Origin: Bacillus sp. F19
GTDB lineage: Bacteria; Bacillota; Bacilli; Bacillales; Bacillaceae
Direction: 5' to 3'
Length of the DNA stretch: 64,000 bases
Assembly (NCBI GenBank): GCA_023823795.1
Contig: CP085710.1
Location: 894,001 to 958,000 of the forward strand
The first letter of the stretch is position 1. The number at the start of each line of letters is the position of its first letter. The translations under genes were made by a program, and so were the position numbers. Under the pieces are notes generated by a model. It had not been told where the DNA came from, did not search any database, and worked only from the letters and a program-made list of their open reading frames with translations. Shown here in pieces: positions 41,545-63,393 of the stretch.

Positions 41545-41628
41545 TTTTGATCACTCAATAGGAGATATGGGCTCTTGTGAACTTTTATTAGATATGGTGG
41601 AAAAACCTTATCATTTCTTATCGTTTCA

Positions 41629-41657
41629 TTGACTCTACTTTTCAATCAAAATATTGT
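41629..41657 (+). promoter_or_regulatory. Sigma-A-like promoter of the mannosidase operon
   Basis: TTGACT (41629-41634), 17-base spacer, TATTGT (41652-41657). Confidence 0.7.
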
Positions 41658-41668
41658 TAAGGTAATAA

Positions 41669-41685
41669 GTAAGAAACCGCTTACA
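41669..41685. promoter_or_regulatory. cre-like operator at the mannosidase operon start
   Basis: GTAAG-AAACCG-CTTAC is a perfect five-pair inverted repeat; AGAAACCGCTTACA matches the cre consensus TGWAARCGYTWNCW at 12 of 14 positions. It lies 5-20 bases after the expected transcription start, a repressing position for CcpA or a LacI-type regulator. Confidence 0.65.
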
Positions 41686-41702
41686 ATAATGAGGTGGAAA
41701 AA

Positions 41703-44414
41703 ATGAAAAATAAAAGAACAGCACATATCATTTCCCACTCCCATTGGGATAGGGAATGGTATATGTCTTTTGAGAAACATCGATATTATTTAGTGAAATT
41801 AATGGATGAACTACTTGAGTTGTTTCAAAAAGAACCAGATTTTAAAAGTTTCCATTTAGATGGACAAACGATTCTGTTAGAGGACTACCTTGAAATTCGC
41901 CCTGAAAAAAGGGAAGAATTAAAAAAAGCAATAAGTGAAAAAAAGCTTCACATTGGACCATGGTATGTTCTTCAAGATGCTTTTTTAACAAGCTCTGAAT
42001 CAAACATACGAAATCTTATCTATGGCTTAAGGGATGCTAAAGAATTTGGATCGGTCTCAAAGCTAGGTTACTTCCCGGATACGTTCGGGATTTATGGTCA
42101 GGCACCGCAGCTGTTAAAGCAAGCAAAAATCGAGACAGCTGCATTTGGAAGAGGTGTAAAACCTACTGGATTTAACAATACGGTGGAAGATGCAAAAAAC
42201 TTCGAGTCACCCTTTTCAGAACTAAAATGGGAATCACCTGATGGTTCATCCATCCTTGGAATTCTTTTTGCGAATTGGTATTCAAATGGCAATGAAGTAC
42301 CAGAGGATGAAAAGGATGCTCTTAGCTTTTGGAATATAAAAATTGAGCAGGCCATGAAGTATGCGGCAACTCCACACCTGCTTTTCATGAATGGGTGTGA
42401 TCATCAGCCAGTTCAGCACAACCTTCCAGCAGCCATTTTAACTGCTAAAAAGCTTTTTCCTGACATCGATTTCGTTCATGCAAGCTTTGATGATTATCTA
42501 AAAAACCTTAAACCATCTTTACCTAATGAATTACAGACAATCACAGGTGAGCTGCGAAACCAGCGAACAGATGGTTGGTCTACACTTGTGAATACAGCTT
42601 CCGCAAGAATCTATCTTAAGCAAATGAATCAGGAGTGCCAAGTGTTACTTGAAAAAGCAGCCGAACCTCTTTCGGTAATGGCACATCTCGTTGGATTTGA
42701 ATATCCGAGTCACTTCTTAAACTATGCATGGAAAACATTAATGAAGAATCATCCGCATGATAGCATATGCGGATGCAGCGTAGATGAGGTACACCGCGAG
42801 ATGGTGAGCCGGTTTGAAAAAGTTAAGCAGATAACTGAAATGATTGTACAAGAAAAAGGAACTGAAATTGCTTCACGTATTGATACAAGGATAGATAATA
42901 ACTCAAAAACTTGCATACCTATTGTTGTTTTTAACGGATCTGGTTCGAAGCGTGAAGAAGTGATTACAAAAGAAGTTGAACTTGAGAAGATCTATTTTTC
43001 AGAAATGGATTTTCAGCAAATCCCAGCTTATCTTGCTGAAAAATCTATGCCAGTGCTTGAAGTGAGAGATCCAATGAGATCCGCAGTTCCAAGTGTCTAT
43101 CATGATAAAGGAATCCGTTTTGGCTATGACTTACCTTCTGACGGCTTTAGAAGACCCTATTTTGCCAGGATTGCAGAACTCACATTTTTAGCTGAAAATG
43201 TTCCCCAAATTGGTTATAAAACGTATTACGTAAACCAAAACGAAAATCCTGCTCAATTTAAACAGATTGACATAATGAATCATGACCGTGAAATGGAAAA
43301 TGATTTTGTTCGTATAAAAATCCATGAAGACGGCTCTTATACTCTTACAAATAAGAAAAGTGAAAAAACATATGAATGTTTAGGAGTATATGAAAATACG
43401 GGCGATATTGGCAATGAATATATGTTTAAAAATACTTTGGACTCAATCCCGCTGACTACAAAGGGCTTGAAAGCCCAAATCCAAGTGTTAGAAAACAATA
43501 GCCTAAGAGCAAGGGTTGAAATGATCCACAAATGGGTGATCCCAAAGAGCGCAGATCAAACATTTGAAAAGGAAAAAAGTATGTTAGTTTGGCACAAAAA
43601 CAGAAAAGCGTTTCGTTCAGCAGAAACCGCAACTATTCAGATAAGAACCATTATGACGCTAGATCAAACGTCAAGAGGACCATCCTTTCAAGCTTTTATT
43701 GAAAATCAAGCTAAAGATCATCGAATAAGAGTCTTATTTCCAACAAATATTCAAACTGACTCTCACCATGCAGATAGTGTTTTTGAAATCGTTAAAAGAA
43801 AAAATTGCCCTGAAATAGAATGGGAGAATCCTAGCTTTGACCATCATCAGCAAGGTTTTGTCAGTATGTCAGATGAACGGAACGGTTTGACCATTGCCAA
43901 TAAAGGCTTACATGAGTATGAAATCTTAGAAGAAAACAAAACCATCGCCTTAACATTACTTCGTTCTGTCTCTGAACTAGGGGATTGGGGTGATTTCTCT
44001 ACACCTGAAGCTCAATGTTTAGGGGAGAATGAAGCAGAATGGATGGTTATCCCTCATTCCGGTGATGTGATTACATCTGAATCTTATCATCTTGCCTATC
44101 AATTTCAAGCGCCGTTAACGATGATTCAAACGGATCTTCATCATGGGGACTTACCTAAGGAAAACCAATTCCTCGAATGGAATGGTCCATCGCTTGCAAT
44201 GACGACTATCAAGATTGCAGAAGAGGGCGATCACGTGATTACTAGATGGTTCAATACTTCAGATGAAAAAGTTGATTTAAAAGTAAACATGCCTCTTGTT
44301 AAACAAGGATTTGCCAGCAATATCATTGAAGAGAAGCTAGAAGGTTTGCCAAGCAACAACATTGAAATAGCCTTAAAACCATTCGAGATTAAGACGGTAG
44401 GCTGGACCCGTTAA
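41703..44414 (+). CDS. GH38 alpha-mannosidase (bacterial MngB/SpGH38 type)
   Basis: 903 residues, no signal peptide, so cytosolic. Zinc-site HSHWDREWY (H12-H14, D16), nucleophile D126 in GYFPDTFG and a later zinc histidine in NHPHDSICGCSVDEVH are intact; a long beta-sandwich C-terminal half follows. GH38 enzymes are retaining alpha-mannosidases; relatives remove alpha-1,2/1,3-linked mannose from imported oligosaccharides. Within the locus it should trim high-mannose N-glycan fragments. GAGGTGG is spaced for ATG 41703, not GTG 41694. First gene of an operon with GH125 (14-base gap). Confidence 0.93.
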   Translation: MKNKRTAHIISHSHWDREWYMSFEKHRYYLVKLMDELLELFQKEPDFKSFHLDGQTILLEDYLEIRPEKREELKKAISEKKLHIGPWYVLQDAFLTSSESNIRNLIYGLRDAKEFGSVSKLGYFPDTFGIYGQAPQLLKQAKIETAAFGRGVKPTGFNNTVEDAKNFESPFSELKWESPDGSSILGILFANWYSNGNEVPEDEKDALSFWNIKIEQAMKYAATPHLLFMNGCDHQPVQHNLPAAILTAKKLFPDIDFVHASFDDYLKNLKPSLPNELQTITGELRNQRTDGWSTLVNTASARIYLKQMNQECQVLLEKAAEPLSVMAHLVGFEYPSHFLNYAWKTLMKNHPHDSICGCSVDEVHREMVSRFEKVKQITEMIVQEKGTEIASRIDTRIDNNSKTCIPIVVFNGSGSKREEVITKEVELEKIYFSEMDFQQIPAYLAEKSMPVLEVRDPMRSAVPSVYHDKGIRFGYDLPSDGFRRPYFARIAELTFLAENVPQIGYKTYYVNQNENPAQFKQIDIMNHDREMENDFVRIKIHEDGSYTLTNKKSEKTYECLGVYENTGDIGNEYMFKNTLDSIPLTTKGLKAQIQVLENNSLRARVEMIHKWVIPKSADQTFEKEKSMLVWHKNRKAFRSAETATIQIRTIMTLDQTSRGPSFQAFIENQAKDHRIRVLFPTNIQTDSHHADSVFEIVKRKNCPEIEWENPSFDHHQQGFVSMSDERNGLTIANKGLHEYEILEENKTIALTLLRSVSELGDWGDFSTPEAQCLGENEAEWMVIPHSGDVITSESYHLAYQFQAPLTMIQTDLHHGDLPKENQFLEWNGPSLAMTTIKIAEEGDHVITRWFNTSDEKVDLKVNMPLVKQGFASNIIEEKLEGLPSNNIEIALKPFEIKTVGWTR

Positions 44415-44428
44415 AAGGAGTAGAGAAT

Positions 44429-45745
44429 GTGAACGCAACGATACCTGAGTCAATGAAAAAACTAATTTTAAAAGTGAATGAACATTTTCTGAATGATAAA
44501 AAACTTCAGGAGATGTTTGCACAATGTTTTATTAATACCTATACAACAACTTTAAAACCACAAGAAGATGGAACAACCTTTGTAATTACAGGTGATATAC
44601 CGGCAATGTGGCTAAGAGATTCAGCAGCACAAGTGAGGCCTTATCTTATCTTAGCTGAAGAAGATGAGCAAATCGCAAAAATGATTGAAGGTGTTGTTTC
44701 TAAACAATTCCAGTTCATTAACCATGATCCTTATGCAAATGCGTTTAATGAAACCCCAAGCGGTAAGGGGCACCAAAGCGACTTAACAGACATGACTCCT
44801 TATATTTGGGAAAGAAAATATGAAGTAGACTCCCTTTGCTATCCATTGCAGCTTGCCTATCTGCTTTGGAAATCAACGGGACGGACTTCTCATTTAAACG
44901 ATTCTTACCAAGCGGGATTAAAAAGCATTTTGAACGTGTGGAAGGTAGAACAAAATCATGAGAATAAATCAGCATACCGTTTCGAACGTGAAAATGTTCG
45001 GCAATCAGACACACTCACGCGCAGTGGTATGGGATCAGAGGTAATAAAAACCGGTATGACTTGGAGTGCATTTCGTCCAAGTGATGATGCCTGCCACTAT
45101 GGTTACCTTGTTCCAGCCAACATGTTTGCGGTTGTGGTTCTTAAATATTCTGCTGAAATTTGTCTTCAGGTCTTGCTTGATTCCGAACTTGCTAAAGAAT
45201 GCATGCAATTGGCTTGTGAAATCGAGGAGGGAATAAAAAAATATAGTGTGATCAACCATCCTGTCTATGAGGAAATGTACGTCTATGAGACAGATGGCAG
45301 GGGAGGTTATAACTTAATGGATGACGCGAATGTTCCCAGCCTTCTCTCGATGCCATATTTAGGTTATTGCGATTTTAACGATCAAACCTACCAAAATACG
45401 AGACATTTTTTGCTGAGCCGGGATAACCCTTATTATTATGAGGGGAAATTGGCAAGTGGAATTGGCAGTCCGCATACCCCAGATCATTATATATGGCATA
45501 TCGCCTTAGCAATTCAAGGTATGACAGCACAAGAGGAATCTGAAAAACAAAGAATATTATCTGTTTTTAAACAAACAGATGGAGATACAGGCTATATGCA
45601 TGAAGGGTTTAACTCAGATGATCCAAAGGAGTACACAAGAGAGTGGTTTTCATGGGCAAACTCTATGTTCAGTGAATTTGTTTTAAGTCTTTGTGGATAT
45701 GCAGTCAAAGGAAGTCCGCTGAATCAATGGCTTCAAAATAAATAA
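44429..45745 (+). CDS. GH125 exo-alpha-1,6-mannosidase
   Basis: 438 residues of the former DUF1237, now GH125. Conserved (alpha/alpha)6-barrel motifs are visible: GDIPAMWLRDSAAQ (55-68), SAFRPSDDAC-YGY (213-226, containing the acid) and GSPHTPDHYIWHIA. No signal peptide, hence cytosolic. Characterised members (Streptococcus pneumoniae, Clostridium perfringens) remove non-reducing alpha-1,6-mannose by inversion, the branch GH38 enzymes leave. GTG 44429 follows AAGGAG by eight bases; ATG 44427 would hit TGA at once. Confidence 0.94.
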   Translation: MNATIPESMKKLILKVNEHFLNDKKLQEMFAQCFINTYTTTLKPQEDGTTFVITGDIPAMWLRDSAAQVRPYLILAEEDEQIAKMIEGVVSKQFQFINHDPYANAFNETPSGKGHQSDLTDMTPYIWERKYEVDSLCYPLQLAYLLWKSTGRTSHLNDSYQAGLKSILNVWKVEQNHENKSAYRFERENVRQSDTLTRSGMGSEVIKTGMTWSAFRPSDDACHYGYLVPANMFAVVVLKYSAEICLQVLLDSELAKECMQLACEIEEGIKKYSVINHPVYEEMYVYETDGRGGYNLMDDANVPSLLSMPYLGYCDFNDQTYQNTRHFLLSRDNPYYYEGKLASGIGSPHTPDHYIWHIALAIQGMTAQEESEKQRILSVFKQTDGDTGYMHEGFNSDDPKEYTREWFSWANSMFSEFVLSLCGYAVKGSPLNQWLQNK

Positions 45746-45764
45746 TGAAATGGGGATGTAAGGC

Positions 45765-48410
45765 ATGGTTCGGTCTAAAAAGGGGTTATGTTCCATTGTT
45801 GCTTTTCTAGCTGTTTGGTTTGTGATCTTTATGCCATCCGGCAGCTTTGCAGCACAGCCGGAATCATCTTATTGGTTTCCAGAACAACTCCTTAAATGGA
45901 GTCCTGAAAAGGATCCTGATGCTCCATTCAATCGGAGTACGATTCCTTTAGCAGATAGGGAGACGCTTTATAATGTTAACAGCAATGCTCAATCAGAAGC
46001 AAAGCTTGTTGCATTATCAGCGTTAAACAAAAACACTAGCGGTGTACCTTCTCAAGGAGGAAAAGAGTTCTTTGCCAACACATTTAGCTATTGGCAGTAT
46101 GTCGATTTAATGGTGTATTGGGCAGGTTCATCCGGCGAAGGCATCATTGTTCCTCCAAGTGCAGATGTGATTGACTCTTCCCACAAAAATGGTGTTCCGA
46201 TTTTAGGGAATGTTTTCTTCCCTCCTGCTGTTTATGGAGGAAAAATAGAGTGGTTGAATCAAATGCTTGAGCAACGCGCGGACGGTTCATTTCCTGCAGC
46301 CGATAAACTGCTGGAAGCAGCCGAATATTATCGATTTGATGGCTGGTTTATTAACCAGGAAACAGAAGGCGGAAGCCAAGAAACCGCTCAAAAAATGAAA
46401 GAGTTTCTCATGTACCTTCAAAAAAATAAAAAAGATGGCATGCACATCATGTGGTATGACTCGATGACAGAGGATGGCAGAATTAACTGGCAGAATGCCT
46501 TAACTGATAAAAATAACGCCTATCTGCAGGATGGAAATAATCGGGTATCCGATAGTATGTTTTTGAATTTCTGGTGGAAAAACCAGGAAGCATCTAACTT
46601 AAAAGCTAAGGAAATCGGAAGATCCCCCTATGATTTATATACGGGCATTGACGTGGAAGCAAAAGGAACACAAACAAAAGTTCCATGGAATGGAATTTTC
46701 CCGGAAGGAAAAAGTCCAAATACTTCATTAGGAATTTATCGTCCGGATTGGACCTTTAACTCTTCTAAAACAATGAATGAATTTTATCAAAAAGAACAGG
46801 ATTTCTGGTCTGGCCAAAAAGGGGATCCTGCCAGTACGGATGGAAATGGTGATTGGAAAGGAATGTCATACTATTTTACAGATAAAACGGCAATTACTCA
46901 TTTGCCATTTGTGACTAATTTCAATACTGGCAGCGGACAATTTTTTGCCGCAGAAGGAATTATACTGAGTCATAAATCCTGGAACAACAGAAGTTTGCAG
47001 GATATCCTTCCGACTTGGAGATGGCTCATTGAAGGAACACCAATCTCTGTTCAATTTGATTGGAATCAAGCGTATACAGGTGGAAGCTCTTTAAAAGTGT
47101 CAGGTGAAATAAAGGGGAATGAATCATCCCATATTAAATTGTATAAAACAAAGCTTCCGGTTGAGTGGGATACGGAACTTTCGATTACCTATAAATCTGC
47201 AAAACCAAATATGAAGGTTGGCATCAGTTTCCTAGACAAACCGAATCACTTTGAATTTTTCGATGTGAAAAAAGAAGCCCAAGGAGAATGGGTGACTCAA
47301 AAGATTAAACTGAAAAGGTTTAAGGGAAAAGAAATCGCTGCCATCTCACTCAAATTTGATCAACAAGAAGCAATCGATATTAATATTGGTGAGATAAAAG
47401 TCTCTAACAAAAAAGATGACAAAAAAGTTCATCAACCTGAAAATGTCATGATAAAAGAAACGGAATTCCAAAATGGGATTTATGCAAATGTTTCTCTGAC
47501 CTGGGAACGAAACAAACAAGCAGATTACTATGAAATTTATCGGGTGTTGCCAAATGGTGATAAAGAATGGCTAGGCGGAACTCCAAACAACTACTTTTAT
47601 CTCTCTGATTTAAAACGAGAGGGAAAAGAGACGAAAACCGAATTGGAAGTAAAAAGTGTTTATAAAGGAAATCAGCGAAGCAATTCTGCTGAAGATGTAT
47701 TTGATTGGCCGCCCTATCCAATGCCGAAAGCGAATTTCAGTTCAGATAAAACACTTGCAGCCCCAGGTGAAGAGATTCAATTTATGAATCAATCATCAGA
47801 AGTGACGGAGGAGCTTGAATGGCGTTTTGAAGGAGGATCACCATCCAGCAGCACAGACGCGAAACCTGTTGTTACGTATGAATCAGAAGGAACTTACTCT
47901 GTTTCTTTAGTGGCAAAAAATAGTGAAGGGGAAGATATTGTCACTAAGGATGCCTATATTACGATTTCAAAAGAAGCAAAAAATGTTACGAATGCAGCAT
48001 TGAATAAGCAAGCTGCTGCTGATGGTCAATGTGCTTCATCTGAAGGTCCAGGATTTGCAATTGACGGTTCAAAATCGAGTAAGTGGTGTGCACTTGGAGA
48101 TGCACCACATTGGTTAAAGATAGATCTTGGCAAAAATCACGCACTTTCAAAATTCGTCCTTCACCATGCTGCAGCGGGGGGAGAACCAAATGCCTTTAAT
48201 ACAAAAGCTTTTAGAATTGAAGGAAGTACGGATGGGGAGAATTGGTCTGAAGTTGTTAAAGTGTCAGATAACACAGCAGATGTTTCCGAACATAGTATCC
48301 GATTGACTGAAGCAAGATATGTAAGGCTATGGATTGATCAGCCTACTCAAGGGGGAGATCAAGCAGCGAGAATCTATGAATTTGAAGTTTTTGGTTATCC
48401 TGCTCCATAG
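45765..48410 (+). CDS. Secreted GH85 endo-beta-N-acetylglucosaminidase with PKD and F5/8 C domains
   Basis: 881 residues. A signal peptide (~1-30, ending SFAA) directs export; no LPxTG or transmembrane tail is seen, so it is released. The GH85 barrel carries the catalytic pair N197 and E199 in FDGWFINQETEG, used in substrate-assisted cleavage of the GlcNAc-beta-1,4-GlcNAc core of N-glycans. It is followed by beta-sandwich regions, a PKD domain (~650-735, with WRFEGGSPS) and a discoidin/F5/8 C carbohydrate-binding domain (~740-881, HWLKIDLGKN ... YVRLWID). It follows GH125 by 19 bases and should generate the oligosaccharides that the rest of the locus consumes. Confidence 0.94.
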   Translation: MVRSKKGLCSIVAFLAVWFVIFMPSGSFAAQPESSYWFPEQLLKWSPEKDPDAPFNRSTIPLADRETLYNVNSNAQSEAKLVALSALNKNTSGVPSQGGKEFFANTFSYWQYVDLMVYWAGSSGEGIIVPPSADVIDSSHKNGVPILGNVFFPPAVYGGKIEWLNQMLEQRADGSFPAADKLLEAAEYYRFDGWFINQETEGGSQETAQKMKEFLMYLQKNKKDGMHIMWYDSMTEDGRINWQNALTDKNNAYLQDGNNRVSDSMFLNFWWKNQEASNLKAKEIGRSPYDLYTGIDVEAKGTQTKVPWNGIFPEGKSPNTSLGIYRPDWTFNSSKTMNEFYQKEQDFWSGQKGDPASTDGNGDWKGMSYYFTDKTAITHLPFVTNFNTGSGQFFAAEGIILSHKSWNNRSLQDILPTWRWLIEGTPISVQFDWNQAYTGGSSLKVSGEIKGNESSHIKLYKTKLPVEWDTELSITYKSAKPNMKVGISFLDKPNHFEFFDVKKEAQGEWVTQKIKLKRFKGKEIAAISLKFDQQEAIDINIGEIKVSNKKDDKKVHQPENVMIKETEFQNGIYANVSLTWERNKQADYYEIYRVLPNGDKEWLGGTPNNYFYLSDLKREGKETKTELEVKSVYKGNQRSNSAEDVFDWPPYPMPKANFSSDKTLAAPGEEIQFMNQSSEVTEELEWRFEGGSPSSSTDAKPVVTYESEGTYSVSLVAKNSEGEDIVTKDAYITISKEAKNVTNAALNKQAAADGQCASSEGPGFAIDGSKSSKWCALGDAPHWLKIDLGKNHALSKFVLHHAAAGGEPNAFNTKAFRIEGSTDGENWSEVVKVSDNTADVSEHSIRLTEARYVRLWIDQPTQGGDQAARIYEFEVFGYPAP

Positions 48411-48417
48411 TCAAGTA

Positions 48418-48448
48418 TTAAGGGGAATCCATCTAGGGTTCCCCTTAA
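48418..48448. terminator. Perfect hairpin between GH85 and the YesL-like gene
   Basis: TTAAGGGGAA-loop-TTCCCCTTAA, 10 perfect pairs, followed by AA rather than T. May act as a leaky terminator or 3' stabiliser for the upstream operon. Confidence 0.6.
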
Positions 48449-48554
48449 AAGCCGAAGCACCGTGTGACATAGCGGGGGCGGCGCTTTAGATAAACATGAA
48501 TGAATATCGGAAACTTATATCCTGGTATCCATTGAAAAAGGAGATGACGGTATC

Positions 48555-49190
48555 ATGGGCAAATTTGTCCAGGAAGCAAGTGAGTGGATTTGGAGAATTC
48601 TTGCCGCAAACGTGCTATGGGTAGGATTTACACTGCTGGGCATTGGAGTGTTTGGCCTTTTTCCATCCACAGTTGCCTTATTTACGGTTACAAGAAAATG
48701 GGTACAAAAGGATTTGGATTTTTCTATATGGAAAGTATTTAAAGACACATTTAAAAAAGAATTTATGCCTGCTAACAAATTGGGAACTTTCTTTTTAGGC
48801 ATAGGATCGTTTTTGTATATTGATTTGAAATTTGCTTTTACCATGCAAGGAACGGGGTCTGTCATCCTCTATTTCTTTTTAATCTTTGTCTCCTTTTTAT
48901 TTGTGTTAACACTTATTTACTTCTTTCCATTATATGTTCATTATCATTTATCATTTTTTCAATACATCAAACAACCTTTTATTCTCGCAATTCTTAGTCC
49001 TAAAACGACTATATTGATGGGAATCGGTCTGTTTTTTATTGGGTATTTGATTAAATCGATGCCAGGGCTGATCCCTTTTATAGCAGGAGTATTTCCGGCG
49101 TATTGGATCATGCATGTTTGTTACAAAAGATTTATAGAGGTAAAAGCCGACATTGGAAAGGAGAATACCCTTGTTTTATACGGAAAATAA
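48555..49190 (+). CDS. DUF624 (YesL-like) membrane protein
   Basis: 211 residues with five hydrophobic segments and the DUF624 N-terminal pattern (WIWRILAANVLWVGFTLLGIGVFGLFPSTVA in parts). YesL-like proteins almost always accompany YesM/YesN sensor systems and LplABC-type sugar transporters in Bacillus, as here; their function is not known. GGAGATGACGGTATC precedes the ATG. Its 3' end overlaps the next GH38 gene by 20 bases. Confidence 0.85.
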   Translation: MGKFVQEASEWIWRILAANVLWVGFTLLGIGVFGLFPSTVALFTVTRKWVQKDLDFSIWKVFKDTFKKEFMPANKLGTFFLGIGSFLYIDLKFAFTMQGTGSVILYFFLIFVSFLFVLTLIYFFPLYVHYHLSFFQYIKQPFILAILSPKTTILMGIGLFFIGYLIKSMPGLIPFIAGVFPAYWIMHVCYKRFIEVKADIGKENTLVLYGK

Positions 49191-52317: not shown

Positions 52318-52341
52318 AAGCGTTTTATGTTTCTTTATAAT

Positions 52342-52377
52342 AGACGTAGTGCCATTTACGGTACTGCGTCTGTTTTA
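52342..52377 (+). terminator. Terminator of the YesL-like/GH38 unit
   Basis: AGACGTAGTGCC-ATTTAC-GGTACTGCGTCT (two wobble pairs) followed by GTTTTA. Confidence 0.75.
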
Positions 52378-52419
52378 TCTTTAAAGAAAGATCGATCAAT
52401 GATAGAGGGTGTAACTGCT

Positions 52420-55750: not shown

Positions 55751-55767
55751 ATGGGCTGGTTTTTTTG
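55739..55767 (+). terminator. Terminator of the two-component operon
   Basis: GCCAG-loop-CTGGT followed by T7; overlaps the stop codon. The ~240 bases that follow contain no gene and should hold the promoter and activator sites of the transporter operon; no clear consensus was found. Confidence 0.7.
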
Positions 55768-56009
55768 TTTGGTTTGGACACAAACAGATTTGAATGTGAC
55801 TAAATGGATACATGTAAGCTCTCGGGGTCAATTCAGAAATTAAGTTAAAACCGGATTTCTTAGCTCTATGCAGCTTGCCCTAGGGTGAACAAGGTGTTTT
55901 CACTTTTCGAAGGAATCCTAAATTAGTCCATCAAATCTAAAAATTGTTAACTTTTATCCAGAAGCGTTCAAATTTACAATAAGAGTAGGAGAAGAAAGGG
56001 AGGGCCTCT

Positions 56010-56948
56010 ATGAAATGGATCAAGAATTTCTTTGTTAATGTGTACAAAAATCGTGTGTGGCTCCTCATGGTTTTGCCAGGGACGATTTGGTTTTTATTTT
56101 TCTCTTATTTACCGATGTTTGGAACAGTTATTGCTTTTAAGAATTTTCGCTACGATGCAGAAGGATTTTTGGCAAGTGTATTAAATAGCGAATGGGTTGG
56201 ATTTCAGAACTTTGAATTTTTGTTCAGTACAAATGATGCCTTCGTAATTACTAGAAACACAATCTTATATAACGCAGTCTTCATCATTTTAGGATTAATC
56301 CTTTCTGTTTTTATTGCGATCGTGCTGAGTGAATTAGCGAACAAAAAACTTGCAAAAGTGTATCAGACCGGAATGTTATTTCCTCATTTTTTATCATGGG
56401 TTGTTATTAGTTATTTTGTTTTTACATTTTTAAGTGTAGATAGAGGTTTGTTGAACAAAATTTTTGAGTGGTTTGGATTGGAAGCGGTTTCTTGGTATAG
56501 CGAAACGGAATATTGGCCATTCATTCTTATCTTTATGTCAATGTGGAAAGGTGTAGGGTACGGAAGCATCGTCTATCTGGCAGCGATTGTTGGTATCGAT
56601 CGAACATATTTTGAAGCTGCAATGATTGACGGGGCCAATAAGTGGCAGCAAATTCGCCATGTGACGATGCCGATGATAACACCGCTTATTGTCATTTTGA
56701 CTATTTTAAATGTTGGAAAAATTTTCAACTCTGACTTTGGTTTGTTTTTTCAGGTGCCGAGAGATTCCGGTGCATTATATCCCGTTACAAATGTTATTGA
56801 TACCTATGTCTATCGAGGATTAACGACTATGGGTGAAATAAGCATGAGCACGGCTGCAGGGCTCTATCAATCGGTCGTTGGCTTTATCCTGGTTATGCTG
56901 ACGAATTATCTTGTTAAGAAGATTGATAAGGAGTATGCCTTATTTTAA
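56010..56948 (+). CDS. LplB-like carbohydrate ABC transporter permease 1
   Basis: 312 residues with six membrane helices and the EAA loop EAAMIDGANKWQQIRHVTMPM (in parts), which docks the ATPase. It belongs to the oligosaccharide importers of the LplB/UgpA type. AAAGGGAGGG precedes the ATG. It heads an operon with permease 2, the binding protein, GH1 and ROK. No ATPase gene is present, as is usual for transporters sharing MsmX. Confidence 0.93.
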   Translation: MKWIKNFFVNVYKNRVWLLMVLPGTIWFLFFSYLPMFGTVIAFKNFRYDAEGFLASVLNSEWVGFQNFEFLFSTNDAFVITRNTILYNAVFIILGLILSVFIAIVLSELANKKLAKVYQTGMLFPHFLSWVVISYFVFTFLSVDRGLLNKIFEWFGLEAVSWYSETEYWPFILIFMSMWKGVGYGSIVYLAAIVGIDRTYFEAAMIDGANKWQQIRHVTMPMITPLIVILTILNVGKIFNSDFGLFFQVPRDSGALYPVTNVIDTYVYRGLTTMGEISMSTAAGLYQSVVGFILVMLTNYLVKKIDKEYALF

Positions 56949-56967
56949 TAAGAAAGGAGACGAAAGT

Positions 56968-57939
56968 GTGAGACCAGTAAATACTCAAGTAAAAGATACG
57001 GCTGTAAAGGTTGACGTACAGAAAAAAAAGAAGCGGCAAAGAAAATATAACCCGCATGAATTAAATGGCTTCCCAAATCTAATCATGAACGTGATCTTAG
57101 GCGGATTTGCCATGGTATGTGTGTTTCCTTTTATATATGTTATTATGATTTCTTTAACGGATGAAAAGACGCTTGCTGTTAACGGGTTCCAAATTATTCC
57201 TGAAAAATGGAGTCCAGCTGCCTATCAATATTTATGGGCTATGAAAGATCAATTGTTTCAATCTTATTTCATTACGATACTCGTTACAATTTTAGGTACA
57301 TTAATAAGTGTGATGACGATCTCTTTTTATGCTTACGCCATCTCAAGAAAACAGTTTTTGTATCGCAAATTTTTCACGTTTTTAGCTTTCTTTACAATGT
57401 TGTTTGGCGGAGGGTTAGTTCCTTTTTATATCGTGGCCACTCAGGTTCTGCAATTAAAAAATACGATCTGGGCTCTTATTCTGCCTCTTGTTGTAAACGC
57501 TTTCTATATTTTGATTATGCGAACTTTTTTCATCAGAGCGGTACCTGAATCTGTATTAGAATCAGCACGCATTGATGGCGCAAGTGAATGGAGAATCTTT
57601 TTTCAAATCGTTTTCCCATTATCCTTGCCTGGTATTGCAACCATCGCATTATTCAGTACACTAGGTTACTGGAATGATTGGTTTAATGCCTTGTTATTTA
57701 TTGATAATCCAACCCTGGTTCCATTGCAATCTCTTTTAATGAAGGTTGAGGGCAACTTGGAATTCATTCGCCAAAATGCATTAACAAATGGTCAGCAAGC
57801 CGGAATATTAACCTCCATTCCGCAAGATGCAGCAAAAATGGCGATGGTAGTCATTTCAACCTTACCGATTGCGATTGCTTATCCATTTTTCCAAAAATAT
57901 TTTGTTAGGGGGCTGACAATCGGCAGTGTAAAAGAATAA
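56968..57939 (+). CDS. LplC-like carbohydrate ABC transporter permease 2
   Basis: 323 residues. A basic N-terminal tail (QKKKKRQRKY) leads into six helices with the EAA loop ESARIDGASEWRIFFQIVFPL (in parts). It pairs with the upstream permease. The frame begins at 56911, inside permease 1, but AAAGGAG is eight bases before GTG 56968. Confidence 0.93.
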   Translation: MRPVNTQVKDTAVKVDVQKKKKRQRKYNPHELNGFPNLIMNVILGGFAMVCVFPFIYVIMISLTDEKTLAVNGFQIIPEKWSPAAYQYLWAMKDQLFQSYFITILVTILGTLISVMTISFYAYAISRKQFLYRKFFTFLAFFTMLFGGGLVPFYIVATQVLQLKNTIWALILPLVVNAFYILIMRTFFIRAVPESVLESARIDGASEWRIFFQIVFPLSLPGIATIALFSTLGYWNDWFNALLFIDNPTLVPLQSLLMKVEGNLEFIRQNALTNGQQAGILTSIPQDAAKMAMVVISTLPIAIAYPFFQKYFVRGLTIGSVKE

Positions 57940-57976
57940 TAGTTAGGAAGAAAACAAACAATAAGGGGGAAAAAGC

Positions 57977-59440
57977 ATGCAAAAGAAATGGGTATCGATT
58001 TTTATGGCTGTGATTAGTTTAACCTTGATTTTATCAGGATGCATGGGGGGAGCTAAGGAGAGCAATTCAACTGAAAATGGGGAAATGAAACCGTATGAAC
58101 TAACGTGGTATATGATCGGAACACCCCAAAAAGATGTTGATAAAGTCATGGAAAAAGTAAATGAATACACGAAAGAAAAAATAAATACTAAAATCAATCT
58201 GAAAATGATCGACTGGGGTGACTATGATAAAAAAATGCAAGTCGTGATTGCCTCGGGTGAGCCGTTTGATATTGCATTTACAAGTTCATGGGCAGCAAAC
58301 TATGTGTTAAATGCCCGAAAAGGTGCTTTTGTTGAATTAGATAAATTACTGGATTCAGAAGGAAAAGAATTAAAAGAAGCATTAGACCCTGCCTTTTTAG
58401 AAGGGGCAAAAATTGATGGGAAATTGTATGCCGTTCCGGCTAATAAAGAAGTAGGACAGCAAAGTGTTTATGTTTTTAACAAGAGATTAGTTGAAAAACA
58501 CAACCTGGACATTACGAAAGTTGAGTCACTTGAAGACTTAGAGCCATTATTAAAAACCATTAAAGAAAATGAACCTGATTTCACCCCGATTTCTACGTTT
58601 AATCCATACCTGCCGTTTGATTATATTTTAGATGATAAAATGCCGTTTGCTGTTCATCTGGATACAATGGATCACAAAATTGTGAATGTGTATGAAACAC
58701 CAGAGATGGAGCAAGCATTAAAAATGATGCACAGCTTCTATAAAGCCGGGTATATTAAGTCAGATGCTGCAACCAGCAATGATCCTTGGCCACTTGAAGT
58801 TGAAAACTGGTTCGTTCGTAAAGAATTGTATCAGCCATATGCTGAGCTTACATGGGCACGTACTTCAGGATATGATTTAGCAGTTCAGCCAATTCATGAG
58901 CCGATTACTTTTAATGCTTCAGTAACGGGTTCGATGCAGGCTATCTCTGTGACATCAAAAAATCCGGAACGTGCGATGATGTTCTTAAATTTATTAAATA
59001 CAGATCCATATTTACGAACTTTATTGGATAAAGGTATTGAAGATGTTCATTATGAAAAAGGAGAGAATGATAAAATTAAAGATTTACAAGCACGTATTGA
59101 TAACTTTAATATGCCAAGCTTTGCCATTGGAAATCAATTTATCCTGCCTTTATATGACAATGATCCAGATGATAAGTGGGATGCCTTTGAGAAATTCAAT
59201 AATGAATCTATACCTGCTCCAACGCTTGGGTTCTATTTTGATCCTAATCCAGTCCGTACGGAAATCGCTGCTATCTCTAATGTCTCAAGTGAGTTTTCAA
59301 AACCGCTCATGACAGGTTCAGTAGACCCAGAAGAGTACTTGCCAAAAGCAAACAAAAAGTTTAAAGAAGCCGGACTTGATAAAGTCATGGCTGAAATTCA
59401 AAAGCAATATGATGCTTGGAGAAAAACACAAGGTAAATAA
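57977..59440 (+). CDS. Lipoprotein solute-binding protein, LplA/LipO type
   Basis: 487 residues. The signal peptide ends at lipobox LSGC (C22), placing it on the outer membrane face. A type-1 extracellular solute-binding fold follows, with a C-terminal DUF3502 region typical of LplA/LipO proteins. It should capture the mannose-containing oligosaccharide released by the GH85 enzyme and deliver it to the two permeases. AAGGGGGAAAA precedes the ATG. Confidence 0.92.
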   Translation: MQKKWVSIFMAVISLTLILSGCMGGAKESNSTENGEMKPYELTWYMIGTPQKDVDKVMEKVNEYTKEKINTKINLKMIDWGDYDKKMQVVIASGEPFDIAFTSSWAANYVLNARKGAFVELDKLLDSEGKELKEALDPAFLEGAKIDGKLYAVPANKEVGQQSVYVFNKRLVEKHNLDITKVESLEDLEPLLKTIKENEPDFTPISTFNPYLPFDYILDDKMPFAVHLDTMDHKIVNVYETPEMEQALKMMHSFYKAGYIKSDAATSNDPWPLEVENWFVRKELYQPYAELTWARTSGYDLAVQPIHEPITFNASVTGSMQAISVTSKNPERAMMFLNLLNTDPYLRTLLDKGIEDVHYEKGENDKIKDLQARIDNFNMPSFAIGNQFILPLYDNDPDDKWDAFEKFNNESIPAPTLGFYFDPNPVRTEIAAISNVSSEFSKPLMTGSVDPEEYLPKANKKFKEAGLDKVMAEIQKQYDAWRKTQGK

Positions 59441-59448
59441 TCATACAT

Positions 59449-59486
59449 GACACCAAGCTGGATTAAGCGGCTTGGTGTCCTTTTTA
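59449..59486 (+). terminator. Hairpin with T-run between binding protein and GH1 genes
   Basis: GACACCAAGC-loop-GCTTGGTGTC then CTTTTT. It probably lets the binding protein be made in excess over GH1 and ROK. Confidence 0.8.
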
Positions 59487-59504
59487 AGGAAGGGGTTTAA
59501 AAAC

Positions 59505-60902
59505 ATGGAAAAACAAATGAATTATCTTTTTCCCAACGATTTTTGGTGGGGATCTGCATCATCCGCAACACAAATGGAAGGACATGCAGAAGGAGACAGC
59601 AAAGGTCAAAATATTTGGGATTATTGGTTTGAGACAGAACCGCACCGTTTTCATAATGGAGTAGGACCCAATCATACTTCAAAGTTTTATGAGAAATACA
59701 AAGAAGATATTCAATTAATGAAAGAAGCAGGACATAATAGCTTCCGATTTTCAATCTCATGGTCAAGGCTGTTTCCGGACGGAGAGGGAGAAGTAAATCA
59801 GCAAGCCATTCATTTCTATGAAGATGTCATCAATGAATTAATTATCCATAACATCGAACCTTTCATCAATCTCTATCATTTTGATATGCCGCTTGCTCTG
59901 CAAAAAAGGGGAGGATGGGAAAACCGTGAAGTAGTTGATGCTTATGTGGAGTATGCCAGCACCTGCTTTAACCTTTTTGGTGATCGAGTGAAAAAGTGGT
60001 TTACCCATAACGAACCGATTGTGCCTGTCGAAGGCGGTTACTTATACGGATTTCATTACCCTGCTATTTGTGACTTTAAAAAAGCCGTACAAGTAGGTTT
60101 TCATACGATTTTAGCTAGTGCAAAAGCTATTGAAGCATATCATGACAGCAGGAAAGACGGAAAGATCGGAATCATATTGAACTTGACGCCTTCCTATCCG
60201 CGCAGTCAGCATCCAGAAGATGTAAAAGCAGCCAGAATGGCGGACCTATTCTTTAACCGATCGTTTTTAGACCCTAGTGTAAAAGGGAAATTTCCTGAAG
60301 AACTAGTTGCTCTTTTGAAAAAGGAAAACTTCCTGCCTGAAATGAAAAAGAAGGATTTAGAAACCATTCAACAAAACACTGTTGATTTATTGGGGATTAA
60401 TTATTATCAGCCACGGAGAATAAAAGCAAAGGAACACCTCCCAAACCTTCAGGCACCATTTGTACCGGAAAGATACTTTGATTATTACGAAATGCCTGGA
60501 AGGAAGATGAATCCTTATCGAGGATGGGAAATCTATGAGAAAGGCATCTATGATATTTTGTTGAATGTCAAACAGGACTACGGAAACATTGAATGCTTTA
60601 TTTCTGAAAATGGCATGGGTGTAGAAGATGAGGAGCGTTTCAGAGATGAAACAGGCAAAATTATTGACGATTACCGAATTGAGTTTATGCAAGCGCACCT
60701 TAAATGGATTCACCAAGCGTTGAAAGAAGGCGTAAATGTCAAAGGATATCACCTCTGGACCTTTATGGATAATTGGTCTTGGCTGAATGCCTATAAAAAT
60801 CGATACGGGCTTGTCTCTGTTCATTTAGATGATCATTATAAAAGATCAATCAAGAAAAGCGGTCAGTGGTTTGCTCAGCTTTCAAAAAATAATGGATTTT
60901 GA
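59505..60902 (+). CDS. GH1 beta-glycosidase
   Basis: 465 residues, (beta/alpha)8 GH1 barrel without signal peptide. Acid/base E170 (FTHNEPIVPVEGG) and nucleophile E368 (FISENGMG) are present. GH1 includes beta-glucosidases, 6-phospho-beta-glycosidases and beta-mannosidases; the subfamily cannot be settled by eye. In this locus a Man-beta-1,4-GlcNAc-cleaving activity is otherwise missing, so it is the natural candidate. ATG 59505 follows AAGGAAGGGG; the frame extends to 59472 in the T-run of the hairpin. Confidence 0.9.
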   Translation: MEKQMNYLFPNDFWWGSASSATQMEGHAEGDSKGQNIWDYWFETEPHRFHNGVGPNHTSKFYEKYKEDIQLMKEAGHNSFRFSISWSRLFPDGEGEVNQQAIHFYEDVINELIIHNIEPFINLYHFDMPLALQKRGGWENREVVDAYVEYASTCFNLFGDRVKKWFTHNEPIVPVEGGYLYGFHYPAICDFKKAVQVGFHTILASAKAIEAYHDSRKDGKIGIILNLTPSYPRSQHPEDVKAARMADLFFNRSFLDPSVKGKFPEELVALLKKENFLPEMKKKDLETIQQNTVDLLGINYYQPRRIKAKEHLPNLQAPFVPERYFDYYEMPGRKMNPYRGWEIYEKGIYDILLNVKQDYGNIECFISENGMGVEDEERFRDETGKIIDDYRIEFMQAHLKWIHQALKEGVNVKGYHLWTFMDNWSWLNAYKNRYGLVSVHLDDHYKRSIKKSGQWFAQLSKNNGF

Positions 60903-60926
60903 AATTTAGAAAGCGGAGGGAGATCG

Positions 60927-61835
60927 TTGGAACTAACAGCGGTATTTGATATTGGAGGAACATCTGTTAAATCAGCCGTCATGAATAGTGATGGGAATGT
61001 AATTGAATCAAACTTGCATCAAACACCACCACAAGGGAACAATGAAATTTTCACCATGCTTATTAATCAAACGGAAGAATATAAACAAAAATATCCTATT
61101 AAAGGAATCGCACTCAGCGTTCCTGGAGCTGTTGATGTTCACACAGGGAACGTCTATTTTGCTGGGGCGGTAACTGATTTACAGAACAAAAGGATTAAGG
61201 AAGAGCTTAAAGGTTTGAACCTGCCTATAGAATTAGAAAATGATGCGAATTGTGCGGCGCTTGCAGAAAAATGGAAAGGTAACGCAATTGCTAACAATCA
61301 CTTTGTCGTCTTAACAGTTGGAACTGGGATTGGTGGTTCTATTTTTATCAACAATGAGTTATATAGGGGAAGCCAAGGTATGGCTGGAGAATTTGGTTTA
61401 ATGTGTCTGCAAATAACAGAAGAGCTGCCTTTACTAATGGAAACAGCTACACTGAGCAGATTAGGCTCTACTTGGAATCTGATCGACCGTGTGAATATTC
61501 GGCTTCATCAAGCTTATACAGGTGAAGAGATATTTGATCTTTATCAGAAAAAAAATCAAGTGATAATCGAAGAAATGGAAGCTTTTTTCACAGCCCTTGC
61601 AGTTGGGACTGTCAACATCATTCATTCTTTAGCTCCAGAAAAGATTCTATTTGGAGGAGGCGTAAGCTCACAAGAAGCTTTCATTTCTTTATTGAAGGAT
61701 AAGATTGGACTGATACGGCCTGAAGCATTGGAACTAGCAATTATTGATCATTGCCGGTACTTCAATCAATCAGGCTTGCTCGGTGCTTTATATCATTATC
61801 AAAAACAAAGAAATAAGAGAAAAAGAGAGATATAA
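60927..61835 (+). CDS. ROK-family sugar kinase
   Basis: 302 residues, TTG start after GGAGGGAG. The ATP motif DIGGTSVK (8-15), catalytic region ELENDANCAALAE and GTGIGG are intact. The usual ROK zinc site is absent: the GEFG motif is followed by L instead of H and the CxCGxxGC cluster is not there, as in some Firmicutes ROK kinases. It would phosphorylate a monosaccharide, mannose or GlcNAc being the expected products here. Last gene of the transporter operon, ending in the hairpin used by the insertion element. Confidence 0.9.
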   Translation: MELTAVFDIGGTSVKSAVMNSDGNVIESNLHQTPPQGNNEIFTMLINQTEEYKQKYPIKGIALSVPGAVDVHTGNVYFAGAVTDLQNKRIKEELKGLNLPIELENDANCAALAEKWKGNAIANNHFVVLTVGTGIGGSIFINNELYRGSQGMAGEFGLMCLQITEELPLLMETATLSRLGSTWNLIDRVNIRLHQAYTGEEIFDLYQKKNQVIIEEMEAFFTALAVGTVNIIHSLAPEKILFGGGVSSQEAFISLLKDKIGLIRPEALELAIIDHCRYFNQSGLLGALYHYQKQRNKRKREI

Positions 61836-61849
61836 CAATCTCTCTCTTT
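61822..61849 (+). terminator. Terminator of the transporter operon and left target-site copy
   Basis: AAAGAGAGAT-ATAACA-ATCTCTCTCTTT in pieces forms the hairpin; the same 28 bases recur at 63394-63421, where the original T-run is still attached. Here the T-run is cut off by the insertion. Confidence 0.9.
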
Positions 61850-63393
61850 CAGATTGTAGACAAAAGGCATTCGGATGAACTCTATCCGAATGCTTTTTGT
61901 CATTTCTAGGGCTAATTTGATGTTTGTAGGCCTATTCGTTGACTATTTTTATACCGCTTTCGCTGGCTTCCATGTCCAGGATGCCAACTTTTTCAAGTTC
62001 ATGGCAGCAAAAGTAAGCATCGCCTGCATGGACAATTTTTTGAGTCCTCTCAACGTTGTCCAACGCATACCATGCTTTTCTTTTGCATCTGCAAAGACAC
62101 GCTCTATCGTTTCTTTACGTTTTGCATAAATTGTTTTGTTCTCTTCTGTATGACGAAGGTGTTCAGCTTCATCTAAGTATTCTTGCCAGAGATGCCTTTC
62201 AATCAATTTCTGATGATTTTGGCTCTCCGTACATTGGCTTAGGAATGGGCAATTTTCACAAACCTTCGGATCGGAAGAGTATTGTCTGTATCCTTTTTTC
62301 GTAGTAGTTCTGTAAGGAAGCACTTGATCGTGCGGGCATATGTAACAATCAAAATGTTCGTCGTACACATAATCACTTTTCTTGAAAAATCCATCTTTTG
62401 TTTTTGGCCGTGTATAAGGAAAAACCGGACGAATTTCTTTTTCGTTCAAATAGTGAGCAAGAGCAGGGTTCTTGTAAGCAGCATCGGCAGCAACAGCAGC
62501 AGGTTTCTTGTGAAGCTCAGTTACTTGATCAAGTAGAGGCTCGAATATTGCACTGTCGTGCACGTTACCAGGCGTAACGATTGTCCCCAGAACAAATCCT
62601 TTTTCGTCAGAGGCTGCGTGAAATGAGTAAGCGAACTGTTTTGTTCTTTCATCTTTTACGTAATAGCCACTTTCCGGATCCGTCGTACTTTCTTTAATCT
62701 CTTTCTCTTCCGGTTCAAATTTATCTGGGGGAAAAGGCTTTTTCCGTTTTCTTCGCGGTCTAGATTGAGTTCGTTTTGGAGCCTTTCCTCATATGATTTC
62801 GTTTCTTTTCGTACGATTTTTTTCTGATACTTTCGTTTATTAGCACTAGCCTTTACGTGAGTTGAATCAATAAATACCTGTTCTCCATTGACCAGTTTCT
62901 TATCAATCGCCTCTTTTAAGATGCGGTAAAATATCTGCTCAAACAGATCTGTATCCTTAAAGCGCCGTTCATAGTTTTTACCGAATGTTGAGAAGTGGGG
63001 CACCTTGTCATGAAAACCAAAACCCAAAAACCAACGGTAGGCTAAGTTGGTTTCAATCTCTTCAATGGTTCTTCTCATGGATCGAATACCGAAAAGGTAT
63101 TGGATGAAGGTCATTTTAATCAATATGACCGGATCAATACTTGGACGACCTCGATCTGCGGAATAGACTTTCTCTACTAATGGATAGATGAAAGAAAAAT
63201 CGAGAGCTTGTTCAATTTTACGGACTAAGTGATCTTCCGGCACCAACTGTTCAAGTGTAATCATTTCTAGTTGATCGCGATTCATTTGATTATTTTTAGA
63301 CAACATCCAAATCACCTCTGTATTGTTCTATTTTCATTATATAAAAAAACTGCCGACAAATCCCCCAAAAAGGGGGGATTTGTCGACAGTCTG
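61850..63393 (-). mobile_element. IS1182-family insertion sequence
   Basis: 1544 bp. The ends form inverted repeats: CAGATTGTAGACAAA (left) against CAGACTGTCGACAAA (right, reverse complement), 13 of 15 equal. It is flanked by a 28-bp direct repeat (61822-61849 and 63394-63421). One transposase reads on the minus strand. Hairpins just inside both ends (61868-61900, GCATTCGGAT/ATCCGAATGC; and 63357-63385, AAATCCCCC/GGGGGGATTT) can stop transcription from outside. Confidence 0.92.
61949..63306 (-). pseudogene. IS1182-type DDE transposase, frameshifted
   Basis: Two minus-strand frames together give one transposase. The N-terminal part (63306 down to ~62744) contains the DUF772 domain (RGRPSIDPVILIKM) and the first catalytic Asp region (FIDSTHVKA); the C-terminal part (from ~62738 to 61949) has VAADAAYKNP and the final glutamate region ERVFADAKEKHGM. 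Dropping one base from the A-run at 62739-62743 (five A on the coding strand, six needed) explains the break. ATG 63306 follows AGAGGTGA. A programmed frameshift is not typical for this family, so it is probably inactive, or a sequencing error. Confidence 0.85.

Follow-up and report, generated by a model that had tools for sequence, protein, structure and literature searches.

A candidate N-glycan utilisation operon in Bacillus sp. F19 that includes a 6-phospho-clade GH1 glycosidase and a BglK-like ROK kinase

Which substrate is served by a compact group of glycosidase, transport and regulatory genes in Bacillus sp. F19, and how would its breakdown be completed? The window, a stretch of 64,000 nucleotides (contig CP085710.1, positions 894,001 to 958,000), contains a locus that an initial annotation had interpreted as a complete set of genes for use of high-mannose N-glycans. 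The N-glycan interpretation was retained in the present analysis, although "complete" says more than the genes covered here can support, since these end at the release of Man6P and GlcNAc. Particular attention was given to the GH1 glycosidase and the ROK kinase, which had been assigned no role in the annotation and which are the most interesting members of the operon as well as the least well understood.

Gene content, conservation and boundaries

Twelve genes on the forward strand span positions 41694-61835 (open reading frames and Pfam domains of the window; Table 1). All parts named in the initial annotation were recovered on this strand, and a broken or decayed locus was rejected because none of the twelve reading frames contains an internal stop. 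The first GH38 gene probably starts at ATG 41703, which is preceded by GAGGTGG, rather than at GTG 41694. Judged by eye, the true starts of the second GH38 gene and of the GH1 gene may lie a few codons downstream of the TTG codons assigned to them.

Table 1. Features of the operon and its flanks in the window.
Feature	Position	Strand	Basis
Cre-like palindrome (catabolite repression)	41671..41686		just 5' of first gene; match to WTGNAANCGNWNNCW
GH38 alpha-mannosidase, first gene	41694..44414	+	Pfam; 3LVT E 6e-257, 2WYH E 7e-248
GH125 alpha-1,6-mannosidase	44429..45745	+	Pfam 7e-160; solved relatives 2NVP, 5M7I, 3QT3
Predicted secreted GH85 endo-beta-N-acetylglucosaminidase	45765..48410	+	GH85_C, PKD, F5/8 type C domains (Pfam)
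DUF624 (YesL type) membrane protein	48555..49190	+	Pfam 4e-26
Second GH38, Ams1 type	49153..52317	+	Pfam; 7VQO E 5e-142, 6LZ1, 7UFR
YesM-type sensor histidine kinase	52327..54225	+	His_kinase, HAMP, HATPase_c
YesN-type response regulator, receiver and AraC HTH	54209..55750	+	Pfam domains
ABC importer permease 1	56010..56948	+	BPD_transp_1
ABC importer permease 2	56911..57939	+	BPD_transp_1
NgtS-like solute-binding lipoprotein (DUF3502)	57977..59440	+	Pfam; 5SWA E 4e-93; lipobox by eye
GH1, 6-phospho-beta-glycosidase clade	59472..60902	+	Pfam; 4B3K, 5FOO
ROK kinase, BglK-like	60927..61835	+	Pfam; PDB best 4HTL; NCBIfam best BglK
Left copy of duplicated operon terminator	61822..61849		28-base identity with 63394-63421
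IS, transposase in two ORFs	61850..63393	-	Pfam DDE_Tnp_1_6, DUF772

Sequences, motifs, domain families and a conserved gene order were established here. A synteny search, as the annotation had proposed, found the order GH38-GH125-GH85-DUF624-GH38-HK-RR-permease in 10 of the 30 loci compared from Bacillales, and a chance cluster is therefore no serious explanation. In 22 of 30 stretches from Bacillales whose GH85 is 54-67% identical, GH125 was present as well, and two congeners share the gene order of the operon. Loci of this type are thus common across Bacillales, and the one described here is no singular case. Among 200 genomes of the class, a strong GH125 occurred in all 23 genomes with a strong GH85 (E <1e-30), versus 8 of the 177 others; GH125 matches weaker than 1e-100 (3/34) were not counted as strong. 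Weaker GH85 matches in 17 of 40 genomes were left out of this count, including 12 weak partial matches over the curated cut-off, and none of these 12 genomes has a strong GH125.

Upstream of the first gene, the cre-like site matched WTGNAANCGNWNNCW, which we take to be the cre consensus, with 0 mismatches on the minus strand (41672-41686) and 1 mismatch on the plus strand (41671-41685). The orphan terminator proposed on the left corresponds to a hairpin of terminator-like form near 41507-41545, which was recognised by eye only, the terminator scan having begun at 44000. The IS proposed on the right was confirmed by its transposase domains; the genome carries 13 full-length and 3 partial copies, this one included. 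In two congeners the operon terminator is undivided and present in single copy, and the 28-base repeat is interpreted as a target-site duplication, with the IS inserted inside the operon terminator. The IS is no part of the pathway.

Release, uptake and trimming of N-glycans

Every activity, localisation and regulatory role given below is predicted from sequence. A GH85 of Bacillus halodurans has been characterised; the closest solved relative of the GH85 encoded here, which has a signal peptide as judged by eye, is Endo-A (2VTF, E 1e-210). Residues N197 and E199, annotated as intact, were both confirmed and belong to the 12 of 12 kept active-site residues that the available text of PMC2646837 names for Endo-A. 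With its carbohydrate-binding tail, this enzyme would cleave the bond that joins the two GlcNAc residues of the core and so free mannose-rich N-glycans from glycoproteins.

The best solved match of the binding protein was NgtS, the pneumococcal N-glycan receptor (5SUO, 5SWA, 5SWB), as described in the accessible part of PMC5215778. An equivalent of NgtS Trp81 is probably kept. Trp386 of NgtS, which stacks on Man-GlcNAc, is probably replaced by Phe, which counts against an N-glycan role; Trp80 and Phe382 of the binding protein align where presumed streptococcal homologues have Trp. As annotated, the twelve genes include no importer ATPase, and the genome has one OB_MalK-type ATPase gene, outside the operon (C1:851028). 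The lipoprotein and two permeases would import ManxGlcNAc, with energy supplied by an MsmX-type ATPase that is shared with other importers and encoded outside the operon.

In the cytoplasm, the two GH38 enzymes and GH125 would trim ManxGlcNAc to Man-beta-1,4-GlcNAc. The nearest solved structures of the first GH38 (3LVT and 2WYH, presumably SpGH38 and EfGH38) and of GH125 are alpha-mannosidases of these same families. The YesMN-type pair would sense the substrate. The DUF624 protein matched the MusI model weakly (22 versus a cut-off of 160 bits).

No GH92, GH20 or PTS gene was detected in the operon (for GH92, by Pfam among its twelve genes). Absence of GH92 speaks against N-glycan use, but was not counted as defining because the bifidobacterial route, in the portion of PMC10154615 at hand, needs no pre-trimming. 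The Endo-A-type GH85, the NgtS-type binding protein, the GH38 and GH125 enzymes, the importer without an ATPase gene of its own, the co-occurrence of GH85 with GH125, the conserved gene order and the place of ROK and BglA3 in the pneumococcal N-glycan regulon all back the proposed N-glycan harvest. The locus is very probably an N-glycan utilisation operon, and the reading best supported is that it serves to harvest N-glycans rich in mannose.

Fate of Man-beta-1,4-GlcNAc

As last step of the operon, the ROK kinase would phosphorylate Man-beta-1,4-GlcNAc on mannose, after which GH1 would split Man6P-GlcNAc into mannose 6-phosphate and GlcNAc. On sequence evidence, the chances that this proposal is correct are roughly even.

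The best solved relatives of GH1 were 4B3K (E 3e-151), which we take to be SPy1599, and 5FOO (E 2e-150), deposited as a 6-phospho-beta-glycosidase; the motif WSWLNAYKNRYGLV is identical in both. Ordinary beta-glucosidases have Glu in place of the Ser of the WSW motif, and this Ser was found in all 60 GH1 loci examined (an uneven sample, among the matches listed). GH1 passed no NCBIfam cut-off. NCBIfam was undecisive because the cut-off of the BGL (beta-glucosidase) model was missed (427 against 478.5 bits) and those of the 6-phospho models by more (at best 372 against 610 bits). A plain beta-glucosidase identity is possible but doubted; by clade GH1 falls among 6-phospho-beta-glycosidases, with predicted 6-phospho activity. 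In other genomes its clade often sits in operons of the lactose/cellobiose PTS type. In the tree, 22 of the 60 loci were PTS-linked (among the matches listed), and GH1 is thus not bound to N-glycan loci; its presence in 22 genomes of the class sample without a strong GH85 is a second count against such a restriction. Nor are GH1 and ROK general in GH85 bacteria: at E 1e-110, this GH1 was absent from 13 of the 23 genomes in the class sample that carry a strong GH85, namely all 12 of family f11 and G119, which weighs against the proposed step.

The ROK kinase was filed only as BglK-like because it scored 185.7 bits against model NF042998, far under the cut-off of 550. It lacks the zinc motif CxCGxxGC and the GExGH histidine (reading GEFGL). 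Both are likewise missing from 4HTL, a beta-glucoside kinase of solved structure, which has Tyr at a position where the ROK of the window has Leu. Of the 31 loci L007-L037, 29 were used (L014 and L033 omitted), giving 27 genomes searched and 26 with a GH1 match. A BglK-like ROK lay within 1.5 kb of the best GH1 in 20 of these 26; in the other six none was recognisable, which counts against the proposed step. One of the six, G018, has a second GH1 copy in the arrangement RR-GH1-ROK(Y type)-ROK, G017 has a second copy without recognisable ROK and G015 a GH1 without ROK. The remaining three correspond to loci L065, L068 and L069.

In a first alternative, the pathway is the same, with Man-beta-1,4-GlcNAc cleaved in unphosphorylated form by GH1 as an ordinary beta-mannosidase, and with the monosaccharides so freed phosphorylated by ROK as a mannokinase or GlcNAc kinase. 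A broad glycon range is common among GH1 enzymes, the several free mannoses released need a kinase, the operon encodes a single ROK, and the BglK cut-off was missed. The grouping of GH1 with PTS-operon relatives, the motif common to 4B3K and 5FOO and the 4HTL-like lack of zinc motif and histidine in ROK speak against this alternative. So does the finding that the GH1 locus of nine genomes includes a further ROK, which is of zinc type and lies upstream in three and is of Asn type in six, and that the Bacillus sp. F19 genome has an Asn-type ROK some 8 kb away from its second GH85. It is possible, and less probable than phosphorylation followed by cleavage.

That the disaccharide is instead split by a GH130 phosphorylase or GH2 beta-mannosidase encoded on contig 2, with GH1 and ROK merely co-operonic and serving other beta-glycosides, is unlikely. 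Both genes do occur in one contig-2 locus (GH2 was searched in the F19 genome), and all 12 GH85 genomes of family f11, each without this GH1, have a strong GH130, within about 11 kb of GH125 in four of them by coordinates. Of the 11 remaining class-sample genomes with GH85, in contrast, 10 have GH1, while the only one with a strong GH130 (E <1e-50) is that of the window; matches in G119 (E 2e-7, fragments) and G110 (E 4e-4) were weak. Moreover, congener G006 has the operon and no GH130 match.

An operon directed at alpha-mannosides such as the alpha-mannan of fungi or yeasts, and not at N-glycans as such, would agree with the activity of GH38 and GH125 enzymes on alpha-mannosides in general, but is highly improbable because the chitobiose core is indicated by GH85 as well as by the NgtS-type binding protein. 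Characterised GH85 enzymes are, in the available text of a review, exclusively N-glycan-active (PMC10154615).

Phosphorylation by ROK and cleavage by GH1 may extend beyond this operon. In pneumococcus, ROK and BglA3 belong to the TCS07 N-glycan regulon (accessible text of PMC7075642). The proposed step would fill a gap there, because the published model, as far as its available description goes, ends at ManGlcNAc despite the co-induction of ROK and BglA3; it would give both proteins a role and provide a testable answer on the fate of ManGlcNAc. We consider it about as likely as not that several Firmicutes families end N-glycan breakdown via Man6P-beta-1,4-GlcNAc, formed by a BglK-like ROK and split by a GH1 that derives, probably through more than one recruitment, from 6-phospho-beta-glucosidases linked to PTS genes. 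If true, this would add a fourth route for cleavage of the core disaccharide to those of GH2, GH5_18 and GH130, by an enzyme pair that was not found described in the open literature, where a search returned nothing on a 6-phospho-beta-mannosidase or on a beta-glucoside kinase with N-glycan.

Comparison with known systems

The Streptococcus pneumoniae system, as given in the available parts of PMC5215778 and PMC7075642, comprises EndoD, NgtS-P1-P2, a carbohydrate-processing locus and the TCS07 regulon, including ROK, BglA3 and ManA. The locus of the window resembles it in GH85, GH38, GH125, an NgtS-type importer without its own ATPase gene, a two-component system with an AraC-type regulator, a ROK and a GH1, the last likened to BglA3 by regulon membership. 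In contrast to the scattered pneumococcal regulon, the genes of the window form one operon, in which GH1 adjoins ROK. The GH85 of this operon is of Endo-A type with a PKD and F5/8C tail; the operon has an additional Ams1-type GH38, and is without GH92 and GH20.

N-glycan loci of Bifidobacterium and Cutibacterium share an endo-glycosidase, an ABC importer and GH38 with the window, but for Man-beta-1,4-GlcNAc have GH5_18 where GH1 and ROK are proposed for the window; enzymes for this disaccharide in other bacteria are GH2 and GH130 (available text of PMC10154615 and PMC6160142). GH1 shares its motif with 4B3K and 5FOO and differs from them in adjoining ROK in an N-glycan operon without PTS gene, while ROK has BglK as its best PDB and NCBIfam match at a score far below the cut-off (186 against 550 bits).

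A search of the open literature listed no work on an operon of this kind from a Bacillus, and the N-glycan systems described in the sources at hand are from gut, skin and pathogenic bacteria. The compact, single-operon Bacillales version would offer a further model system and a source of Endo-A-type enzymes. While this kind of system is already known from pneumococcus and bifidobacteria, the combination of a 6-phospho-clade GH1 with a BglK-like ROK in a PTS-free operon is new here.

Operon content and surroundings

The initial annotation had read the locus as an N-glycan (high-mannose) utilisation set, and this reading was borne out: with its gene naming matched by Pfam families throughout, the locus is, by its sequence, an N-glycan operon with genes for release, import and demannosylation, a known kind of system that is widespread in Bacillales. 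Its twelve genes stood head to tail, and none of the twelve open reading frames contained an internal stop. The catalytic pair Asn197 and Glu199 named for GH85 was present. The closest PDB sequence to GH85 was Endo-A (2VTF) from Arthrobacter protophormiae, and mapping of the Endo-A alignment rows showed that all 12 Endo-A residues named in the available text of PMC2646837 were kept. The first GH38 was closest to 3LVT/5KBP and 2WYH, the second to Ams1 chains and 7UFR, and GH125 to 2NVP, 5M7I and 3QT3.

Coordinates of the operon and of features in and beyond the window
Feature	Coordinates	Strand	Remarks
Cre-like palindrome	41671-41686		Upstream of the first operon gene (GH38)
Operon	41694-61835	+	GH38, GH125, GH85, DUF624, GH38, sensor kinase, response regulator, two permeases, binding protein, GH1, ROK (Pfam)
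DUF624 protein gene	48555-49190	+	
Insertion sequence (IS) with flanking repeats	61822-63421		Two-ORF transposase; inserted within the operon's terminator hairpin
Site of missing segment	63660		About 5.5 kb, directly downstream in two congeners (loci L044, 6701-12184, and L046), missing in the window
Second N-glycan-like region	G000:C1, about 4786-4814 kb		Same genome; loci L114, L041, L116
Leucine-rich repeat + Fn3 protein gene	L114:1958-6307		Near the second region; 1449 aa
Beta-mannoside locus (probable)	G000:C2, 364-383 kb		Same genome; L115

The DUF624 protein matched the MusI family very weakly (22 bits; cut-off 160); MusI assists a maltose ABC importer. With one mismatch tolerated and both strands counted, 65 cre-like sites were found in the whole window, against 39.6 expected from shuffles, none of 100 shuffles reaching 65. 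Twenty-eight bases including the terminator hairpin were duplicated on either side of the IS, of which the genome holds 13 full-length copies, counting that of the window; in two congeners the hairpin is single and undivided. The sequence left there, ahead of a LacI regulator gene and a catabolic operon of inositol/Kdu type, resembles by eye the tail of a gene for a sugar-binding protein.

The second region encodes GH125, a GH29 fucosidase, an oxidoreductase, xylose-isomerase-like proteins, an importer, DUF624, an AraC regulator, a second GH85 (33% identity) and a protein resembling GH42; an Asn-type ROK follows some 8 kb beyond. The region may serve fucosylated glycans. The nearby leucine-rich repeat protein matched the Pfam EndoS LRR domain (5e-21).

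Distribution of the locus

A scan of named genomes yielded 34 loci, 30 of them in named Bacillales genera, where GH85 identity was 54-67% (best segment) across nearly the whole protein; the other four comprised one from Lachnospiraceae (41%) and three matching C-terminal domains only. GH125 lay within the fetched stretch in 22 of the 30 Bacillales loci, the remaining eight including contigs that end near the GH85 gene. The window order GH38-GH125-GH85-DUF624-GH38-sensor kinase-response regulator-permease was kept in 10/30, the order GH85-GH1-ROK-DUF624-GH38-GH125-GH38 occurred in four, and the remaining eight with GH125 had other orders. Some Neobacillus and Fictibacillus loci (L012, L018, L035, L133) contained more than one GH85 gene, differing in similarity. 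Within the genus, GH85 was found in 3/8 genomes, and both other carriers had all twelve operon genes at 92-100% identity.

Of 200 sampled genomes of the class, 23 carried strong GH85 (E below 1e-30), all together with strong GH125, which was also present in 8 of the 177 genomes without strong GH85. The 23 leave out 17 genomes with weaker, partial GH85 matches, 12 of them above the curated cut-off; none of the 17 had strong GH125, and counting the 12 lowers co-occurrence to 23/35.

The GH1/ROK pair and a possible alternative last step

The GH1 was closest to 4B3K, which we take to be SPy1599, and to 5FOO, deposited as a 6-phospho-beta-glycosidase; the motif WSWLNAYKNRYGLV was identical letter for letter. 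The accessible text of PMC10360150 refers to SPy1599 as a 6-phospho-beta-glucosidase. Among the 60 GH1 loci listed, an uneven sample, 22 adjoined a PTS EIIC, 26 a ROK match without EIIC (very weak in L065), one operon genes alone, and 11 no gene of these kinds. A Pfam check of 20 GH1-flank proteins found PTS EIIC or EIIA in nine, the other EIIC calls being by similarity to one of these. In the tree of these GH1s, ROK-linked and PTS-linked rows were interleaved, and the ROK label needed five changes, the number forced by well-supported branches; the direction of recruitment is inferred, since the root is unsure. The window GH1 belonged to a supported group comprising 11 rows, of which 10 were ROK-linked and one lacked a labelled neighbour; a separate supported group of 10, mostly Neobacillus and Bacillus sp., had nine with ROK and one without. 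The residue after NRYG was Phe in 20/22 PTS-linked and Leu in 23/26 ROK-linked rows.

The best PDB match of the ROK was beta-glucoside kinase 4HTL, and the beta-glucoside kinase (BglK) model of NCBIfam scored best (185.7 bits; next 125.4), under its cut-off of 550. The ROK lacked the zinc motif CxCGxxGC, and Leu replaced the His of GExGH, which touches the reducing-end hydroxyl in glucokinases; 4HTL and 2GUP, the latter presumably the ROK encoded at the N-glycan locus of pneumococcus, have Tyr there. A Leu- or Tyr-type ROK lay within 1.5 kb of the best GH1 in 20/26 genomes. The remaining six had only an Asn-type ROK (one), only weak ROK-like matches (three, two of them at PTS-linked GH1s) or none (two); in one of the six, a second GH1 copy had a Leu- or Tyr-type ROK next to it. 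The 26 best-GH1 flanks showed no zinc motif, though the ROKs of loci L050, L052, L053, L055, L064 and L067 end too early past GExG for judgement; these six loci held an Asn-type ROK alongside a BglK-like one. Of ten ROKs scored against NCBIfam, BglK was the top model for 7/7 Leu/Tyr types and 0/3 others, none reaching a cut-off. In L015, L021, L023 and L037, a zinc-type ROK immediately preceded the first GH38; the genomes of the last three also have a BglK-like ROK at GH1, that of L015 does not. Two ROK types in one locus would fit two kinases for two substrate kinds.

Alternatively, the last step could be performed by the GH130 or the GH2 beta-mannosidase on contig 2, so that a rival route is present in the same cell. 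There, a binding protein, GH13, DUF1861, GH130, GH2 beta-mannosidase, an MFS protein and a ROK lie together in a locus that probably serves beta-mannosides. Window-type GH1 (E 1e-110) was found in only 10 of the 23 strong-GH85 genomes; the 13 without it were all 12 of one family (f11) and G119. Strong GH130 occurred in all 12 f11 genomes, in four of them no more than about 11 kb from a GH125 gene, and, among the 10 GH85 genomes with GH1, only in that of the window (p 1e-4 for the two distributions, although almost the whole of one side comes from a single family and the 23 cases are therefore not independent). Within the genus, GH130 was present in 2/3 GH85 carriers and also in three GH85-negative congeners. 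The split between GH1 and GH130 genomes is compatible with two alternative last steps and also with a simple lineage difference.

Comparison with the pneumococcal system

The closest PDB sequences to the binding protein were 5SWA, 5MLT and 5SUO (E about 1e-93), of which 5SWA and 5SUO are pneumococcal NgtS, whose Trp386 stacks on Man-GlcNAc and whose Trp81 contacts a terminal mannose (PMC5215778, excerpts). Alignment of 24 binding proteins, with presumed streptococcal rows numbered one or two off relative to that paper, gave Phe382 and Trp80 as probable equivalents; the platform would be aromatic too, yet not identical. As initially annotated, the operon encodes no importer ATPase; one OB_MalK-type ATPase gene was found genome-wide. 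The pneumococcal locus is likewise reported without one, and MsmK has been suggested there (PMC5215778, excerpts).

Presumed streptococcal GH1s (family f33) were 53-58% identical to that of the window, and at L105, the single locus where that side was scanned, a glmS-like gene adjoined, presumably as it does BglA3. In the available text of PMC7075642, the TCS07 regulon includes EndoD, NgtS-P1-P2, GH38, GH125, ROK, BglA3 and ManA, some of its genes lack an assigned function, and the model stops at ManGlcNAc, with free mannose possibly phosphorylated by ScrK. BglA3 is described there as not specifically inherited together with TCS07, which disfavours a tight link. A review names GH2, GH5_18 and GH130 as families cleaving Man-beta-1,4-GlcNAc (PMC10154615, excerpts), and no GH1 or kinase route was found described in the open-licence literature searched. 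We propose that the GH1/ROK pair could provide the last-step enzymes, ROK phosphorylating Man-beta-1,4-GlcNAc and GH1 splitting the resulting Man6P-GlcNAc; this pair is what sets the locus apart, as it offers a concrete suggestion, cheap to test, for a step so far unassigned.
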